Part shown: positions 19,964-63,464 of the stretch, one piece after another | How the letters are laid out: every line of letters starts with the position of its first letter | Position numbering within the stretch: the first letter of the stretch is position 1 | DNA from: Isoptericola luteus | GTDB taxonomy: Bacteria; Actinomycetota; Actinomycetes; Actinomycetales; Cellulomonadaceae | Reading direction: 5' to 3' | Length of the DNA stretch: 64,000 nucleotides | Assembly (NCBI RefSeq): GCF_020297055.1 | Contig: NZ_JAIXCQ010000002.1 | Coordinates: forward strand, 248,001-312,000 | Program-made: the position numbers and the translations under genes | Notes under the pieces: model-generated | The model's input: the letters and a program-made list of their open reading frames with translations, nothing else | What the model was told of the DNA's origin: nothing | Databases searched by the model: none

Positions 19964-21310
19964 GTGAGCGCGAGCACCGAGCCGGACCCCCTGCCCACCA
20001 CGACGCCCGACGCACCCCCTGCGGTTCCGGCCACCCCGCCCCACCCCCGGTCCGTCGTCGTCGTCGGCGCCGGACTTGCGGGAGCGCAGACGGTGTCCGC
20101 GCTACGCACCCACGGGTTCGACGGGCGGATCACGCTGCTGGGCGCCGAGGGCGTGCCCCCGTACGACCGGCCGCCCCTGTCGAAGGAGCTGCTCACCCGC
20201 CCTGGGCCCGTCTGGCTGAGCGACGACCTCGGGGTGGACGTCGAGTCGATCGCCGACGACGTCCGCCTGGGCGACCCCGCCGTGGCCCTCGACGTCGCGC
20301 CGGACGGGGTCGCGGTGACCGCCGCCTCGGGCGAGCGGACCGCCGCGGACGCCGTCGTGCTCGCCGTCGGGTCGCGTCCTCTGCGCCCGGACGGCTGGGA
20401 GCACGCCGACGTGCTGCACACCGCCGCCGACGCCGATCGGCTCCGGACGGCGCTCCGCGAACGTCCCGGGCTGCGCCTCGTGCTCGTGGGCGCAGGGTGG
20501 ATCGGCGCCGAGCTCGCCGGGGTGGCCGCCGGCGCGGGCGCCGACGTGACGGTCCTGGAGGCGGCCGTGAGCCCGCTGTCCCGGCAGCTCGGACCGGAGG
20601 TCGGGGCGCACCTGGCGCCCTGGTACGCCGCCGCGGGCGTCCGGTTGCGCACCGGGGCGGCCGTCGCGGACGTCCGGCCCGACGGGGTGACGCTGGCGTC
20701 GGGCGAGGTGGTCCCCGCCGACCTGGTGCTCGCCGCCGTGGGCGCGCGGCCGGCGTCGGACCCGTTCGCCGGCGCGGTCGAGACCGACGCCCGCGGGCAC
20801 GTGGTGGTCGACGCCGACGGTCGGGTCCCGGGCCTCCCCCGGGTGTGGGCCGTGGGGGACGTCGCGGCGCGGGCGCACCCGGTCTTCGGAACGGTGCCGG
20901 GCGGGCACTGGTCGGCCGCGCTGCACGACCCGGACGCCACCGTCCGGGCGATGCTCGGCGTCACAGGTGGCACCGCGCACGCGCCGTACGTCTTCTCCCA
21001 GCAGCTCGGCCACGACCTGGCGCTGCTCGGGCTGCCGCCCGCGGCAGGGCCCGTCGTCTGGCGCGGCATCCCGGGCCAGGGGCCCTGGGCCGCGCTCTAC
21101 CTGGACCCGGCCGAGGACGTCGGACCCGGCGGCGCCGAGGCACCTCGCGACGGCGTCGCCACCGTGCGCGCCGTCCTGCTCGTGGACTCGCCCCGCGACG
21201 TCGGCGGCGTGCGGCGGCTCATGAACCGCGGCGTCCCCCTGCGGCTCGACCTCGCCCGGGCCACCGACCTCGCCGTCCCGCTCAAGTCCGCCCTCGCCCC
21301 GCCGAGATAG
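19964..21310 (+). CDS. NAD(P)/FAD-dependent ferredoxin-reductase-like oxidoreductase
   Basis: A 448-residue flavoprotein of the rubredoxin/ferredoxin reductase group. It has an FAD dinucleotide fold VVVGAGLAGAQT near residue 32, YDRPPLSKELL, an NAD(P) fold LVGAGWIGAELAGVAAGAG near 175, the second FAD motif WAVGDVA near 300 and a C-terminal Reductase_C-like domain. It probably passes electrons from NAD(P)H to a ferredoxin or oxygenase; no partner is nearby. The GTG at 19964 sits 6 nt after a TACCCT -10. The last codons, Pro-Arg-stop (CCG AGA TAG), lie inside the first unit of the 22-bp repeat array, so the repeat provides the stop codon. Confidence 0.87.
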   Translation: MSASTEPDPLPTTTPDAPPAVPATPPHPRSVVVVGAGLAGAQTVSALRTHGFDGRITLLGAEGVPPYDRPPLSKELLTRPGPVWLSDDLGVDVESIADDVRLGDPAVALDVAPDGVAVTAASGERTAADAVVLAVGSRPLRPDGWEHADVLHTAADADRLRTALRERPGLRLVLVGAGWIGAELAGVAAGAGADVTVLEAAVSPLSRQLGPEVGAHLAPWYAAAGVRLRTGAAVADVRPDGVTLASGEVVPADLVLAAVGARPASDPFAGAVETDARGHVVVDADGRVPGLPRVWAVGDVAARAHPVFGTVPGGHWSAALHDPDATVRAMLGVTGGTAHAPYVFSQQLGHDLALLGLPPAAGPVVWRGIPGQGPWAALYLDPAEDVGPGGAEAPRDGVATVRAVLLVDSPRDVGGVRRLMNRGVPLRLDLARATDLAVPLKSALAPPR

Positions 21311-21443
21311 AGAGCCCACCTCGCCGAGATAGAGAGCCCACCCGGCCGAGATAGAGAGCCGGGCTCGCCGAGATAGAGAGCCCACCGGCTCTCTATCTCG
21401 GCGAGGTGGGCTCTCTATCTCGGCGAGGTGGGCTCTCTATCTC
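21301..21443. repeat. 22-bp-periodic inverted repeat array (GAGATAG family), convergent junction
   Basis: Four forward cores GAGATAG begin at 21304, 21326, 21348 and 21370, exactly 22 bp apart. Three reverse cores CTATCTC begin at 21393, 21415 and 21437, again 22 bp apart. Each unit is close to GCCGAGATAGAGAGCCCACC. The centre forms a 13-bp hairpin with loop CACC, and the outer units can extend it. The array fills the whole gap between the flavoprotein and purH stops, starting inside the former gene. It probably acts as a two-way terminator; no T run is present. Confidence 0.9.
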
Positions 21444-21449
21444 GCGGGG

Positions 21450-23084
21450 TCAGTGGGCGAAGTGGCGCGTGCCCGTGAGGTACATCGTCACGCCGGCGGC
21501 CCGGGCCGCCTCGACCACCTCGGCGTCACGGATGGACCCGCCCGGCTGCACGACGGCGCGCACGCCGGCGTCGAGCAGCACCTGGAGCCCGTCGGCGAAC
21601 GGGAAGAACGCGTCGGACGCCGCGACGGCGCCTCGCGCCCGCTCGAGCGGACCCGCGTCGCCCTCGGCGAGCGTGTTGGCGCGCTCGACGGACAGCCGGC
21701 AGGAGTCGACCCGGTTGACCTGGCCCATGCCGATGCCCACCGCGGCGCCGCCGGAGGCGAGCAGGATCGCGTTGGACTTGGCCGCGCGCACGGCCCTCCA
21801 CGCGAACGCGAGGTCGGCGAGCGTCGCCTCGTCCGCGGCGTCGCCGGCGGCGAGGGTCCACGACGCCGGGTCGTCGCCCTCGGCCTGGAAGCGGTCGACC
21901 TCCTGGACGAGCATGCCGCCGGAGATCGGGCGGTTCTCGGCGGCGGCGTGCGGCGGGGCGTCGACCACGAGCAGGCGCACGTTCTTCTTGGCCTGCAGGA
22001 TCTCCAGCGCCTCAGGCTCGAACCCGGGTGCCACGACGACCTCCGTGAAGACCGGGGCGATCTGCTCGGCCGCGGCCTTCGTGACCACACGGTTCGCGGC
22101 GATGACGCCGCCGTACGCGGACACCGGGTCCGTGGCGTGCGCGCGGGCGTGGGCCTGCGCCACGTCGTCGCCGACGGCGATGCCGCACGGGTTGGCGTGC
22201 TTGATGATCGCGACGGCGGGTCCGTCGTGGTCGTGCGCGGCGCGCCAGGCGGCGTCGGCGTCCACGTAGTTGTTGTAGCTCATCGCCTTGCCGTGCAGCT
22301 GGGTGGCCTGGGCGAGCCCCGTCGCGCCGTCGGTCCGCGTGTACAGGGCGGCCTTCTGGTGGGGGTTCTCGCCGTAGCGCAGCACGCTGGCCCGCTCGAG
22401 GGCAGCACCGGTGACGTCGGGCAGCCCGGTCTCGAGCGCCGCCTCGTCGGGCGCGTAGGCGCTGGCGAACCAGGAGGCGACCGCGACGTCGTACTGCGCG
22501 GTGTGCGCGAAGGCCGCCGCAGCGAGGCGCTTGCGCTGCGCGAACGTGAACCCGCCGCCGGTGACGGCGGCCACGACGTCGTCGTACCGCGCCGGGTCGA
22601 CGACGACGGCCACGCTCGGGTGGTTCTTGGCGGCGGCACGCACCATGGACGGCCCGCCGATGTCGATCTGCTCGACGACCTCGTCCGGGCCGGCGCCCGA
22701 CGCGACCGTGGCGGCGAACGGGTACAGGTTGACGACGACGAGCTCGAACGCCTCGATGCCGAGGTCGGCGAGCTGGGCGAGGTGGTCTGCCTTGCGGGTG
22801 TCGGCGAGGATCCCGGCGTGCACGCGCGGGTGCAGCGTCTTGACACGCCCCTCGAGGCACTCGGGGAACCCGGTGAGCTCTTCGACGCGGGTCACGGGGA
22901 CGCCGGCGTCGGCGATCCTCGCCGCCGTGGACCCGGTGGACACGAGCTCGACCCCGGCGGCGTGCAGGGCAGTGGCGAGCTCGGTCAGGCCGGTCTTGTC
23001 GTAGACGCTGAGCAGCGCGCGCCGCACGGGGCGCTGGGCGTCGTCGGTGAGCTGGACGTCGGGGGCGGTGGGTGCGCCGGTCAT
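21450..23084 (-). CDS. purH: Bifunctional AICAR transformylase/IMP cyclohydrolase
   Basis: A 544-residue enzyme of the last two steps of purine synthesis: formylation of AICAR with 10-formyl-tetrahydrofolate, then ring closure to IMP. The cyclohydrolase domain carries SVYDKTGL (26-33) and [13 protein letters not shown] (81-93). The transformylase domain has [13 protein letters not shown], the catalytic KHANPCGIA and [14 protein letters not shown]. The ATG at 23084 has GAGGAG upstream. purH normally follows purN directly in this gene order, but here four unrelated genes separate them, so it needs its own promoter in 23085-23243. Confidence 0.97.
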
Positions 23085-23243
23085 GGGGATCTCCTCGGTG
23101 CGGGGTTCTCGCGGAAAGACCCTCGCACCCAGGCGGGCGGCGCGCATGGTGGCCGGTCGCACGACGCCGCGTGCTGCACGCCGACGACCGGGCGGCCGCT
23201 CCCCGGTGGTGACCCACCCTCGCCAGTCACGGCCGGTGCGAGT

Positions 23244-47829: not shown

Positions 47830-48425
47830 GCGACGACAAGCCCACGACGCCCCTGCACCGCGACGGGTCGGAGGAGGTCGACGAGACGCAGGCCCTCCCC
47901 GCGGCCGACGAGACGCAGGCCCTCCCCGCGGCCGACGAGACGCAGGCCCTCCCCGCGGCCGACGAGACGCAGGCCCTCCCCGCGGCCGACGAGACGCGGG
48001 CGCTCCCCGTCGCCGGGCCCGACGACCCGCTGTCGGTCTTCGACCGGCCCGATCCCCGACCGTCCGGCGAGCCCGCGCCGTCGGTCGGCGCTCCGCCCTT
48101 CGACCCGGGCCGGTCCACCGAGCGGTCCTCCGCCCCTGCCTCACCGCTCGACCGGGCACCGGCACCGGCTTCGGCCCGCTCGGACGAGCCGGCCCGCACC
48201 GCTCCGGTCAAGCCCCCGGTGTCCTCGGGACCGCGGTCCAGCACGATCGTCTGGGGTTTCCTCGTCGTCGCGTTCGGCGTCGGGCTGCTCGCCAACGCCG
48301 CGGGCGCACGGATCGACATCGAGCTGGCCGCGATCGTGCTGCTCGCGGCGGCGGGCGTGCTGCTCGTCGTCGGTTCGGCGGTCAGCGCGCTCCGGCGGCG
48401 TCGCCAGGGGGCGCCCACCCCCTGA
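47826..48425 (+). CDS. Membrane protein with DETQALPAA tandem repeats
   Basis: A 199-residue protein. Residues 19-63 are five tandem 9-residue repeats, DETQALPAA with a final variant DETRALPVA. A Pro/Ser/Ala-rich disordered stretch follows, then two membrane helices (about 140-160 and 165-185) and a basic tail. TQ in an acidic context is a typical phosphothreonine/FHA motif in actinobacteria, so the repeats may be kinase targets. It is coupled to the PspC protein by ATGA. I know no named family. Confidence 0.8.
   Translation: MSDDKPTTPLHRDGSEEVDETQALPAADETQALPAADETQALPAADETQALPAADETRALPVAGPDDPLSVFDRPDPRPSGEPAPSVGAPPFDPGRSTERSSAPASPLDRAPAPASARSDEPARTAPVKPPVSSGPRSSTIVWGFLVVAFGVGLLANAAGARIDIELAAIVLLAAAGVLLVVGSAVSALRRRRQGAPTP
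47880..48014 (+). repeat. In-frame 27-bp tandem repeat, five units
   Basis: Units begin at 47880, 47907, 47934, 47961 and 47988. The first four are identical at the DNA level and the fifth has several changes. Identity at DNA level implies recent expansion, so copy number may vary among strains. Confidence 0.95.
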
Positions 48426-54577: not shown

Positions 54578-54672
54578 TAGGGTGACCGCAGCACGGGAGC
54601 CCACACCGGGGCTGAGAGGGCGAGGGACGCCGACCGTCGAACCTGATCTGGGTCATGCCAGCGAAGGGAGCA
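54578..54672 (+). ncRNA. TPP riboswitch (THI element) before thiO
   Basis: -10 TAGGGT at 54578-54583 places the RNA start near 54590. The aptamer holds CGGGGCTGAGAGG (pyrimidine-sensing arm, about 54607-54619) and ACCTGATCTGGGTCATGCCA with GCGAAGGGA (54641-54669), the canonical THI-box core. It ends 4 nt before the thiO start, and GAAGGGAG doubles as the ribosome site, so TPP binding probably blocks translation. Confidence 0.95.
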
Positions 54673-54676
54673 CATC

Positions 54677-57017
<2,341 letters not shown>

Positions 57018-57032
57018 CCCGCCCTCCCCGCC

Positions 57033-57186
57033 GAGACAGGGAGCACCCTCGCCGAGATAGAGAGCACCAGGGCGCGAGATAGAGAGGGCACCGGGCCGAG
57101 ATAGAGACCCCCGACCGACGAGATAGTGCGAAGAGCTATCTCGTCGGCCGGGGGTCTCTATCTCGTCGGTCCCGGGTCTCTATCTC
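57033..57186. repeat. 22-bp-periodic inverted repeat array (GAGATAG family), second copy
   Basis: Forward cores start at 57033 (variant GAGACAG), 57054, 57076, 57098 and 57120; reverse cores CTATCTC at 57136, 57158 and 57180. All steps are 22 bp except the first, 21 bp. The central hairpin has 29-bp arms (57098-57126 with 57136-57164, one wobble) and a 9-nt loop. The right end gives the TAG stop of the MoeB/ThiF gene. Spacer sequences between cores differ from those of the array at 21301 but mirror each other within this array. Confidence 0.9.
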
Positions 57187-58379
57187 GCGGCGATGAGGGC
57201 AGGCGCTCCGCCGTCCACGGAGCGCGCGTCGATGCCGACGGCCCGCACCACGTCCGCCACGCGGGCCGACCGCGCGCCCGCGGCGCACACCAGGAGCACG
57301 GGCCGGTCCGCGGGCAGCTCGGCCCGCGCGGCGTCCGCGCCGTCCGGCCCCAGGAACACGCCGCTCGGCACCAGGTGCGACCCGGCCAGCGGGAGCAGCC
57401 GCGCCTCCCACTCCTCCCGCACGTCGACCAGCGCGACCGTGGGGTCGCCGGCGAGCAGGTCGGCGGCGTCCCGGGCGGACACCGCTGCGGGGCCCAGCCC
57501 CGACGACGACGGCACGGGCAGCCCGCAGAACGCGGCGTACGCGGCGTCGTCCGGCAGCAGGGCGACGACCGGCTCCCGCGTCGGGTCCGGGCGCACGGTG
57601 AGCTGGCGCCACGTGAGGTCGAGGGCGTCGTAGACGGCGATGCGGCCCAGCAAGGTGGTGCCCGCGCCGGTGATCAGCTTGATCGCCTCGGTGGCCATGA
57701 CCGACCCGACGGTGCCGCACAGGGCACCGAGCACGCCGCCCGTCGCGCAGTCGGGCACGGTGCCCGCGGGCGGGGGCACCGGGAAGACGTCGCGGTAGGT
57801 GGCGCCGCGCTCCCGGGAGCCGTCGGCCAGCCGCGGCGCGCCCCAGAAGACGCTCACCTGGCCGTCGAACTGGTGGATGGCGCCCCACACGACCGGGACG
57901 CCGAGGATCTCCGCCGCGTCGGAGACGAGGTAGCGCGTGGGAAAGTTGTCCGCGCCGTCCAGCACGACGTCGTACCCGCCCACGACGTCGAGCACGTTCT
58001 CGGGGGTGAGCCGCACCGGGTGCGGCACGACGTGCACGTCGGGAGCCAGGTCCGCGAGCCGGTCCCGGGCGGACTCCACCTTGGGCCGGCCGAGGTCCGC
58101 GGTGCCGTGCACCACCTGGCGCTGCAGGTTGGTGACGTCGACGACGTCGTCGTCCACGACGCCGAGGGTGCCGACCCCCGCGGCCGCGAGATACTGCAGC
58201 GCGGGGCTGCCGAGCCCGCCCGCCCCGACGACGAGGACGCGCGCCGCACCCAGCCGCCGCTGTCCCTCGACGCCGACGCCCGGCAGCGGCAGGTGCCGGG
58301 CGTACCGGGCCAGGCGCGCGGCGTCGAGCTCGGCGCCCGGAGCGACGAGGGGGGCGAGGGCCGGGCCGTCGGTCGTCAT
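57180..58379 (-). CDS. moeB: MoeB/ThiF-type adenylyltransferase with C-terminal rhodanese domain
   Basis: A 399-residue E1-like enzyme that adenylates the C-terminal Gly-Gly of ThiS- or MoaD-type carriers. VLVVGAGGLGSPALQYLAAAG (nucleotide loop, near 40-59, quoted in part), RQVVHGTADLGRPK, GADNFPTRYL and PDCATGGVLGALCG are typical. Residues about 290-399 form a rhodanese domain with active-site Cys in LVCAAGARSARV, supplying sulfur. A classical pair of CxxC zinc motifs is not visible. It is coupled by ATGA to the DUF3817 gene. Its last codons, GCG AGA TAG, lie within the repeat array. Confidence 0.92.
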   Translation of the reverse strand: MTTDGPALAPLVAPGAELDAARLARYARHLPLPGVGVEGQRRLGAARVLVVGAGGLGSPALQYLAAAGVGTLGVVDDDVVDVTNLQRQVVHGTADLGRPKVESARDRLADLAPDVHVVPHPVRLTPENVLDVVGGYDVVLDGADNFPTRYLVSDAAEILGVPVVWGAIHQFDGQVSVFWGAPRLADGSRERGATYRDVFPVPPPAGTVPDCATGGVLGALCGTVGSVMATEAIKLITGAGTTLLGRIAVYDALDLTWRQLTVRPDPTREPVVALLPDDAAYAAFCGLPVPSSSGLGPAAVSARDAADLLAGDPTVALVDVREEWEARLLPLAGSHLVPSGVFLGPDGADAARAELPADRPVLLVCAAGARSARVADVVRAVGIDARSVDGGAPALIAAR

Positions 58380-62377: not shown

Positions 62378-62396
62378 CGCGAGATCGAGGTATCTC
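62378..62396. terminator. Short GAGATCG-type hairpin after the ABC pair
   Basis: CGCGAGAT pairs with ATCTCGCG around a short loop CGAGGT (62379-62400 region), 4 nt past the ABC stop. The core GAGATCGAGGTAT is the same as in the array at 63397. Confidence 0.7.
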
Positions 62397-62452: not shown

Positions 62453-63418
62453 ATGACGACGCACGCACCGCGGCCGGGCGACCGCCGGGACCTCGACGCC
62501 CCGACAGTGCCCCCTGCCACCCGGTTCAGCGAGAGCCGACGAGCCGAGATCGCACGGCGGACGGCGACCGGGGACCTCCAGCGCGTACGCAAGGGCGTCT
62601 ATCTGGCCCCTGTCGACGAGGACGGTCCGGCGCGGGCCAGGCGGGCCGAGGTGCTCCGACGCGTCCGCGCCGTGCAGCTACGGCTCACCACCGCCTACTG
62701 GTACTCGCACACCACCGCGGCGGTGCTGCACGGGTGCTGGACGTGGCGTCTCTCCGACGCCGTGCACGTGACGCAGCTGCGGGCCCCCAACGCGGAGCAG
62801 TCCCGGGAACGCGGCCTTCGCCGCCACTGGACGGCGCTGCCGCCGCGCGACCGGACGACGATCGACGGCCTCCCCGCCACGACGCTGGAGCGCACGGTGG
62901 TGGACTGCGCGCGAACCTTGCCACCCGACCAGGGGCTGGTCGTCACCGACTCGGCCCTGCGCGGGGGTGCCGACCTCGACGTGCTGTGCGCGATCCTGGA
63001 CGAATCGGCCGGGAGACGCGGGGTGCGCAGGGCCCGAGAGGTCGTCGACCTGGCCGATCCTCGATCCGAGTCGCCGGGCGAGTCGTTGCTGCGCTGGGTG
63101 GTGCACGACGCCGGGCTGCCGACGCCCGAGGCGGGCCACCGCACGATGACGCGACGCGGCGACGTCTGGCTCGACCTCGCCTGGCCCGAGCGCAAGGTCG
63201 CCCTCGAGTTCGACGGCGCGGTGAAGTACTCGGGCGGCGACTACGGCGACCCTGCGGGTCGTGTCTTCGCGGAGAAGCTCCGGCAGGACGCGCTGGAGGA
63301 GGCGGGCTGGCTGGTCGTGCGGGTCACGTGGGACGACCTGCACCAAGCGGAGGCGCTGGCGGCCCGCATCCGGGCTGCGCTCCGCACCCGTTCGCCGAGA
63401 TCGAGGTATCCGTCGTGA
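62453..63418 (+). CDS. AbiEi-antitoxin-like/DUF559 endonuclease-fold protein
   Basis: A 321-residue protein. The N-terminal part (FSESRRAEIARRTATGDLQRVRKGVY, here quoted only to mark residues 24-49) is AbiEi-type winged helix, and LPATTLERTVVDCAR is its conserved middle. The C-terminal DUF559 part DVWLDLAWPERKVALEFDG (about 243-261) with LEEAGWLVVRVTWDDL is a Vsr-like PD-(D/E)xK fold with Asp and Glu in place. These proteins are common in actinobacteria without a toxin partner; their role is unknown. Its last eight codons (SPRSRYPS) lie within the 20-bp-periodic repeat that follows. Confidence 0.82.
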   Translation: MTTHAPRPGDRRDLDAPTVPPATRFSESRRAEIARRTATGDLQRVRKGVYLAPVDEDGPARARRAEVLRRVRAVQLRLTTAYWYSHTTAAVLHGCWTWRLSDAVHVTQLRAPNAEQSRERGLRRHWTALPPRDRTTIDGLPATTLERTVVDCARTLPPDQGLVVTDSALRGGADLDVLCAILDESAGRRGVRRAREVVDLADPRSESPGESLLRWVVHDAGLPTPEAGHRTMTRRGDVWLDLAWPERKVALEFDGAVKYSGGDYGDPAGRVFAEKLRQDALEEAGWLVVRVTWDDLHQAEALAARIRAALRTRSPRSRYPS

Positions 63419-63464
63419 GATCGACCTTCAGTAGGTCGACCTCGCGACGGGTACCTCGATCTCG
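63397..63464. repeat. 20-bp-periodic inverted repeat (GAGATCG family), convergent junction
   Basis: Forward cores GAGATCG at 63397 and 63417, reverse cores at 63437 (CGACCTC) and 63457 (CGATCTC), each 20 bp apart. Arms of about 32 bp match with three differences, all G-T compatible. The tail of the DUF559 gene lies inside, and the GyrI-like gene ends 4 bp after. Confidence 0.85.

Follow-up and report, generated by a model that had tools for sequence, protein, structure and literature searches.

What kind of element is the phased repeat array that lies between two convergent genes at 21300..21444 of the window, the 64,000-nucleotide stretch of Isoptericola luteus DNA analysed here, and is a protein dedicated to it? 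Below, G000 is the source genome of which the window is part, C a contig, L a fetched locus, and F and R are forward and reverse units. The array consists of a forward half with four CGAGATAGAGA units (21300..21386, + strand) and a reverse half with three units (21387..21444, − strand), both with a 22-bp period: the motif GAGATAG starts at 21304, 21326, 21348 and 21370 in forward and at 21393, 21415 and 21437 in reverse orientation. All positions agree with a preliminary description of this 4F+3R array, which had suggested a protein on one face of the DNA or a multi-hairpin RNA end, both of them possible. Our reading is that the arrays are probably (roughly two chances in three) the cognate sites of a family of AbiEi-like/Vsr-like nucleases, and are spread or maintained together with it. 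It draws on sequence comparison, which showed units rigidly phased at 21/22 bp, a near-invariant core, a nuclease gene bracketed by arrays, spellings that follow protein clades, matching arrays genome-wide and some shared unit copies.

The window has 14 copies of GAGATAG where 1.06 would be expected, a count reached in 0 of 100 shuffles. Seven copies form the array at 21300..21444 and the other seven a second 4F+3R array, spelled alike, at about 57029-57191, where it separates thiG from a thiF-like gene. In the whole genome, GAGATAGAGAG has 57+41 occurrences (0+0 for the reversed-pattern control), with distances between pairs that are nearly always 21 or 22 bp. The 36 stretches that we fetched correspond to 33 non-redundant array loci, as two duplicate other stretches and two are the halves of one contig-end locus. 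These loci have in common an 11-bp core, CGAGATAGAGA, and the 21/22-bp period; the core is near-invariant, while the spacer between cores is C-rich and unconserved. Among unit-to-unit distances in the 15-30 bp range (34 own loci and 53 genome_contigs loci), 269 out of 272 were 21 or 22 bp, and the same was true of 95 out of 96 distances with neighbouring spacers less than 60% identical. The preliminary description took the period to be meaningful and called for a search of the genome and its relatives; on the points that sequence can address it is borne out, as there are about 33 loci rather than only two and relatives keep the period. Two regions (G000:C1:35-54 kb and C3:62-82 kb; L009/L017 and L010/L018) share identical runs of 4001 bp and 2065 bp, either an assembly duplication or a real repeat. 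In addition, contigs C6, C7, C8, C15 and C26 end inside or next to arrays, as expected for long hairpins.

A gene for a predicted nuclease lies at G000:C21:274743-275714, with malQ and an M1 peptidase gene as its neighbours. It is bracketed by CGAGATAGAGA arrays, those on one side being forward and those on the other reverse. The family protein has an AbiEi-like N-terminal half and a C-terminal domain with the fold and the conserved catalytic-type residues of a Vsr-like PD-(D/E)XK nuclease; these residues are nearly invariant in the family. PADLOC AbiEi models matched the N-terminal half in all 8 members (E up to 0.1; best 6.5e-20), and Pfam gave weak matches to AbiEi_4 in 5 and to AbiEi_1 in 3 of the 8. 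A PDB sequence search returned weak matches only, NCBIfam had no match for three members tested, and no relatives of the protein were confirmed in viral_contigs. The interpretation in the preliminary description stands in part: the phasing does matter, and what it missed is the association with a bracketed predicted nuclease gene and the pairing, in other genomes, of other spellings with relatives of this gene.

The window itself carries a second member of the family (62453..63418, + strand), 47-49% identical to the C21 member and accompanied by a spelling of its own, CGAGATCGAGGTA. One copy of this word lies just upstream of the gene (62380..62392, +), and a 2F+2R array with a 20-bp period covers its end (63396..63464), so placed that the second unit begins with the gene's stop codon, TGA (63416-63418). 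The word was found at five places in G000, namely the flank of its own gene and C1:261625, C1:313368, C1:568763 and C22:119983, and a wider pattern around it also matches seven other genomes of the genus.

In several genomes, a family gene lies between a forward and a reverse array. Among six genomes that carry the CGAGATAGAGA spelling strongly, five (G000, G005, G010, G020 and G223) have a close ortholog of the C21 gene and G004 has a broken copy. These carriers are kin, which inflates Fisher tests of the association, and we do not rely on such tests. Runs of at least three repeats flank the gene on both sides in 19 out of 58 family loci, 18 of them within a convergent pair, and at the other loci, hairpins with one or two units of the locus's own word are frequent. 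An inverted word of at least 12 bp was common to both flanks in 45 out of 57 family loci versus 33 out of 397 control genes; a word of this kind that contains CGAR was found in 17 of the 19 array-flanked loci, in 22 of the 38 other loci and in 11 of the 397 controls. Direct words between the flanks were longer too (median 13 versus 10 in controls), as expected from hairpins on both sides.

We then considered whether spelling follows the protein. On a tree of 56 proteins, the nine spellings assigned to 20 rows require 8 changes, the minimum possible, and related proteins within a single synteny group have five different bracketing spellings. With one pattern covering the words beside L226, L234 and L230, we searched 18 genomes of the genus and found the predicted carriers: G007 (88+65 matches; control 1), G005 (75+41) and G002 (18+11). 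G010 had 1+1 matches, G014 had 0+1 and twelve other genomes had none; the matched letters were checked in G007, G005 and G014. Among the 18 genomes, matches to the word beside L212 and L227 were confined to G016 (7+8, of which two flank its own gene) and G017 (1+3, none at its gene). Three results do not fit this pattern: the two GTAGAAC rows of the tree do not form one clade, G011 gave 15+15 matches to the L226/L234/L230 pattern that were not predicted, and no source of the G011 arrays was found beside two of its three family members. For these G011 arrays, 30 pairs of the word CGAGNYAGKRS, no bracketed gene was identified. Taken over related species, the same type of gene next to other spellings suggests an undescribed system, in which a nuclease is paired with dispersed DNA repeats of its own.

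The arrays are patchy among relatives. The CGAGATAGAGA type matched in 9 out of 221 genomes of the taxonomic family, with at least 10 matches in 6 of those, and the source genome was the sole match in an order-wide sample of 396 genomes, which contained none of the other strong carriers. Relatives carry differently spelled arrays at 19-22-bp periods. In a survey of 400 kb per genome, the leading words at convergent ends were CGAGATAGAGA in G000, CGAGGTAGCGC in G001 and CGAGTCAGCGC in G012, and a general pattern built from these three genomes matched in 36 out of 221 genomes and 11 out of 25 genera, some by a single match (controls 0-3, save G239 with 70 versus 149 matches and G004 with 5 versus 9). 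Orthologous junctions across genera, including that of purH, keep arrays with different unit numbers and spacers: the purH junction of G001 has a 3F+3R array, with a 20-bp period, of the word CGARGTAGCGC, and single hairpins occur there in several other genomes. In G002, G008, G009, G012, G016 and G017 (L110, L112-L116), the arms of these hairpins are ACGAGCGTGC or ATCGAGCGTGC, another recurrent word.

This retention at orthologous junctions, together with spacers that diverge while core and period hold, is also what one would expect if a domesticated protein served the host and the arrays were its anchor or boundary sites (in supercoiling, chromosome structure or road-block termination) with no mobility. 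We regard such a role as unlikely, given the patchy occurrence (some genomes with a single match), the nearly invariant nuclease residues, the different spellings within the same synteny group and the units common to separate loci.

The position of the arrays relative to genes raises another explanation, in which they are expanded hairpins that serve convergent genes as bidirectional terminators or stabilise their 3' ends, and have no protein dedicated to them. According to a simple gene-calling script, 26 of the 36 own stretches lie between convergent genes (3 reverse-reverse, 1 forward-forward and 6 with one side missing at contig ends), mostly beginning at or shortly after stop codons, and at 19 gene ends the TAG of the outermost unit doubles as the stop codon (gap −7). 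The 59 clusters in L045-L098 comprised 35 convergent, 9 reverse-reverse, 6 forward-forward, 1 divergent and 8 unclear cases, and neither they nor the own loci had a reverse unit ahead of a forward unit. At 21300..21444, the stop codon TAG (21308-21310) of a pyridine nucleotide-disulphide oxidoreductase gene (19964..21310, +; the start is a script estimate) falls within the first unit, and the convergent purH gene (AICARFT/IMPCHase; 21450..23162, −) lies about 6 bp from the array. The arms 21298-21362 and 21385-21449 have 94% complementarity, and the RNA fold of 21296-21451 reaches −152.1 kcal/mol versus −68.2 +/- 4.6 for shuffles. This very stable hairpin, however, is followed by no T-run on either strand as an intrinsic terminator would be, and an Rfam scan of the window gave no match at the arrays. 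Few convergent junctions hold arrays (4 array loci versus 62 junctions in the 400 kb surveyed). By rough gene calls, G012 has R ahead of F in 5 out of 26 clusters and 3 out of 27 runs between divergent genes, and in G001 the orientation of 7 out of 27 runs departs from the transcription rule (reverse runs between forward genes in 5 cases, forward runs between reverse genes in 2); we thus rejected orientation set by transcription as a universal rule. As termination also leaves the rigid two-turn period, the protein-tracking spellings and the gene-flank predictions unexplained, and G012 has some arrays between divergent genes, we give this explanation little weight. Long array hairpins may nonetheless separate convergent transcripts or end transcription.

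We also looked for traces of copying. An identical spacer was common to eleven pairs of own loci versus 0.45 expected, and 500 shuffles gave at most 5. Contig ends are involved in four of these pairs, and six derive from one C-rich spacer that the gene-flanking array has as well. The two arms of the same locus shared an exact spacer in 30 out of 56 loci versus 0.2% of the between-locus comparisons. Units are therefore copied within loci and apparently, in some cases, between them. The identical arm spacers point to local inverted copying, as neutral minisatellites would show if they expanded through slippage and inverted template switching without a cognate protein. That possibility appears very improbable, as the core is near-invariant where spacers vary, the period is retained despite differing spacers and the arrays are associated with a protein family.

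Under the cognate-site reading, the binding, cutting, copying and mobility that we infer for the family protein could proceed as follows. The AbiEi-like half would bind DNA and read the CGAGATAGAGA core, and several protein copies would line up along units phased at two helical turns. The array would be where the nuclease acts; its target might be an extruded hairpin or a single strand, which we propose because the same genome tolerates intact duplex copies. Repair would then copy, expand and re-pair units, and arrays might thereby spread to gene ends, the sites of least harm.

Several known systems resemble parts of this arrangement. By fold, the nearest are the catalytic domain of the homing endonuclease I-Bth0305I (3r3p), the endonuclease-like protein 3hrl and Vsr (1cw0, 1vsr), nucleases that presumably go under the labels EDxHD and DUF559-type; unlike these, the family gene is free-standing at gene junctions, with many intact cognate sites in the same genome. 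The match of the N-terminal half to AbiEi models recalls type IV toxin-antitoxin (AbiE) systems, from which the family differs by its nuclease domain and, at the C21 locus, by having M1 peptidase and MalQ genes as neighbours and no AbiEii toxin/nucleotidyltransferase. The layout is closest to that of the REPtron, a tnpA-REP (RAYT) gene with GTAG-tagged REP repeats according to excerpts of PMC3733652, PMC6006769 and PMC8266576: in both, a gene is bracketed by repeats dispersed in its own genome, the repeats for the most part follow genes and often face in opposite directions, spellings are specific to a family, and enzyme and repeat co-evolve. Bracketing, dispersed 3'-end repeats and inverted pairs would thus fit a classical REP/RAYT system (PMC3733652, PMC6006769, in the same excerpts). 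Yet the REPtron enzyme is an HUH tyrosine transposase and the bracketed gene here has a different fold, AbiEi-like with a Vsr-like nuclease domain; the Y1 transposase domain (Y1_Tnp, PF01797) was found in none of 18 genomes searched, the source genome included (the control was positive in 5 out of 14 well-known genomes). In place of 20-40-bp palindromes, the units are 11-bp cores at a 19-22-bp phase with free spacers; the core is non-palindromic, the palindrome is formed by forward and reverse arms, and no single 20-40-bp palindrome with an unpaired GTAG or CGTC tag was found. For these 18 genomes, we consider a REP/RAYT system practically excluded. The TAACTGA intergenic direct repeats of Beggiatoaceae, most of them just upstream of start codons in the studied genome, are likewise a short fixed word in many intergenic sets with patchy occurrence, and their abstract, in contrast with the CGAGATAGAGA arrays, mentions no gene bracketed by repeats (PMC4679880).

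Among the open-access papers listed by our searches, we found no earlier report of this nuclease-repeat system. More tentatively, at somewhat less than even odds, the system would be a separate intragenomic selfish class, an independently evolved second counterpart to RAYT/REP: AbiEi/Vsr-fold nucleases nested in phased arrays of their own word, spreading arrays to gene 3' ends, with words and proteins that change together at the same locus and relatives that differ in dialect. Bacteria commonly have palindromic repeats at the ends of genes, and some of these repeat families have no known enzyme, the CGTC repeats being one according to an excerpt of PMC3733652. Here, a protein family previously recognised just by weak AbiEi and restriction-nuclease-like matches gains candidate DNA targets that can be read from sequence, and its natural members display at least nine spellings. 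Protein-DNA co-evolution, array spread and any transcript-end effects become directly testable. A further caution is that some solo 'AbiEi antitoxins' may belong to a repeat system.

Besides TAACTGA-type repeats, a TRAP-like GAG/UAG reader was considered as a possible counterpart. Two other candidates were set aside: DNA uptake sequences, against which the clustering in arrays argues, and Tn7/Mu-type transposon ends, given the single-orientation arrays at tandem genes and the varying unit number at orthologous loci. A search of viral_contigs for the array gave one low-GC match; the low-GC contigs L082 (1230-1380; a metagenome-assembled genome labelled Shewanella) and L098 (1400-1540; a viral contig) have CTCTATCTCGA repeats at about 21-22 bp, probably by chance and unlinked to the family. 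Finally, the sole Rfam match in the window was a TPP riboswitch (54583-54686, +) with thiG about 1.6 kb downstream, and a tandem repeat at 47879-48009 has a 27-bp period (a multiple of three), 4.9 copies and 98% matches.
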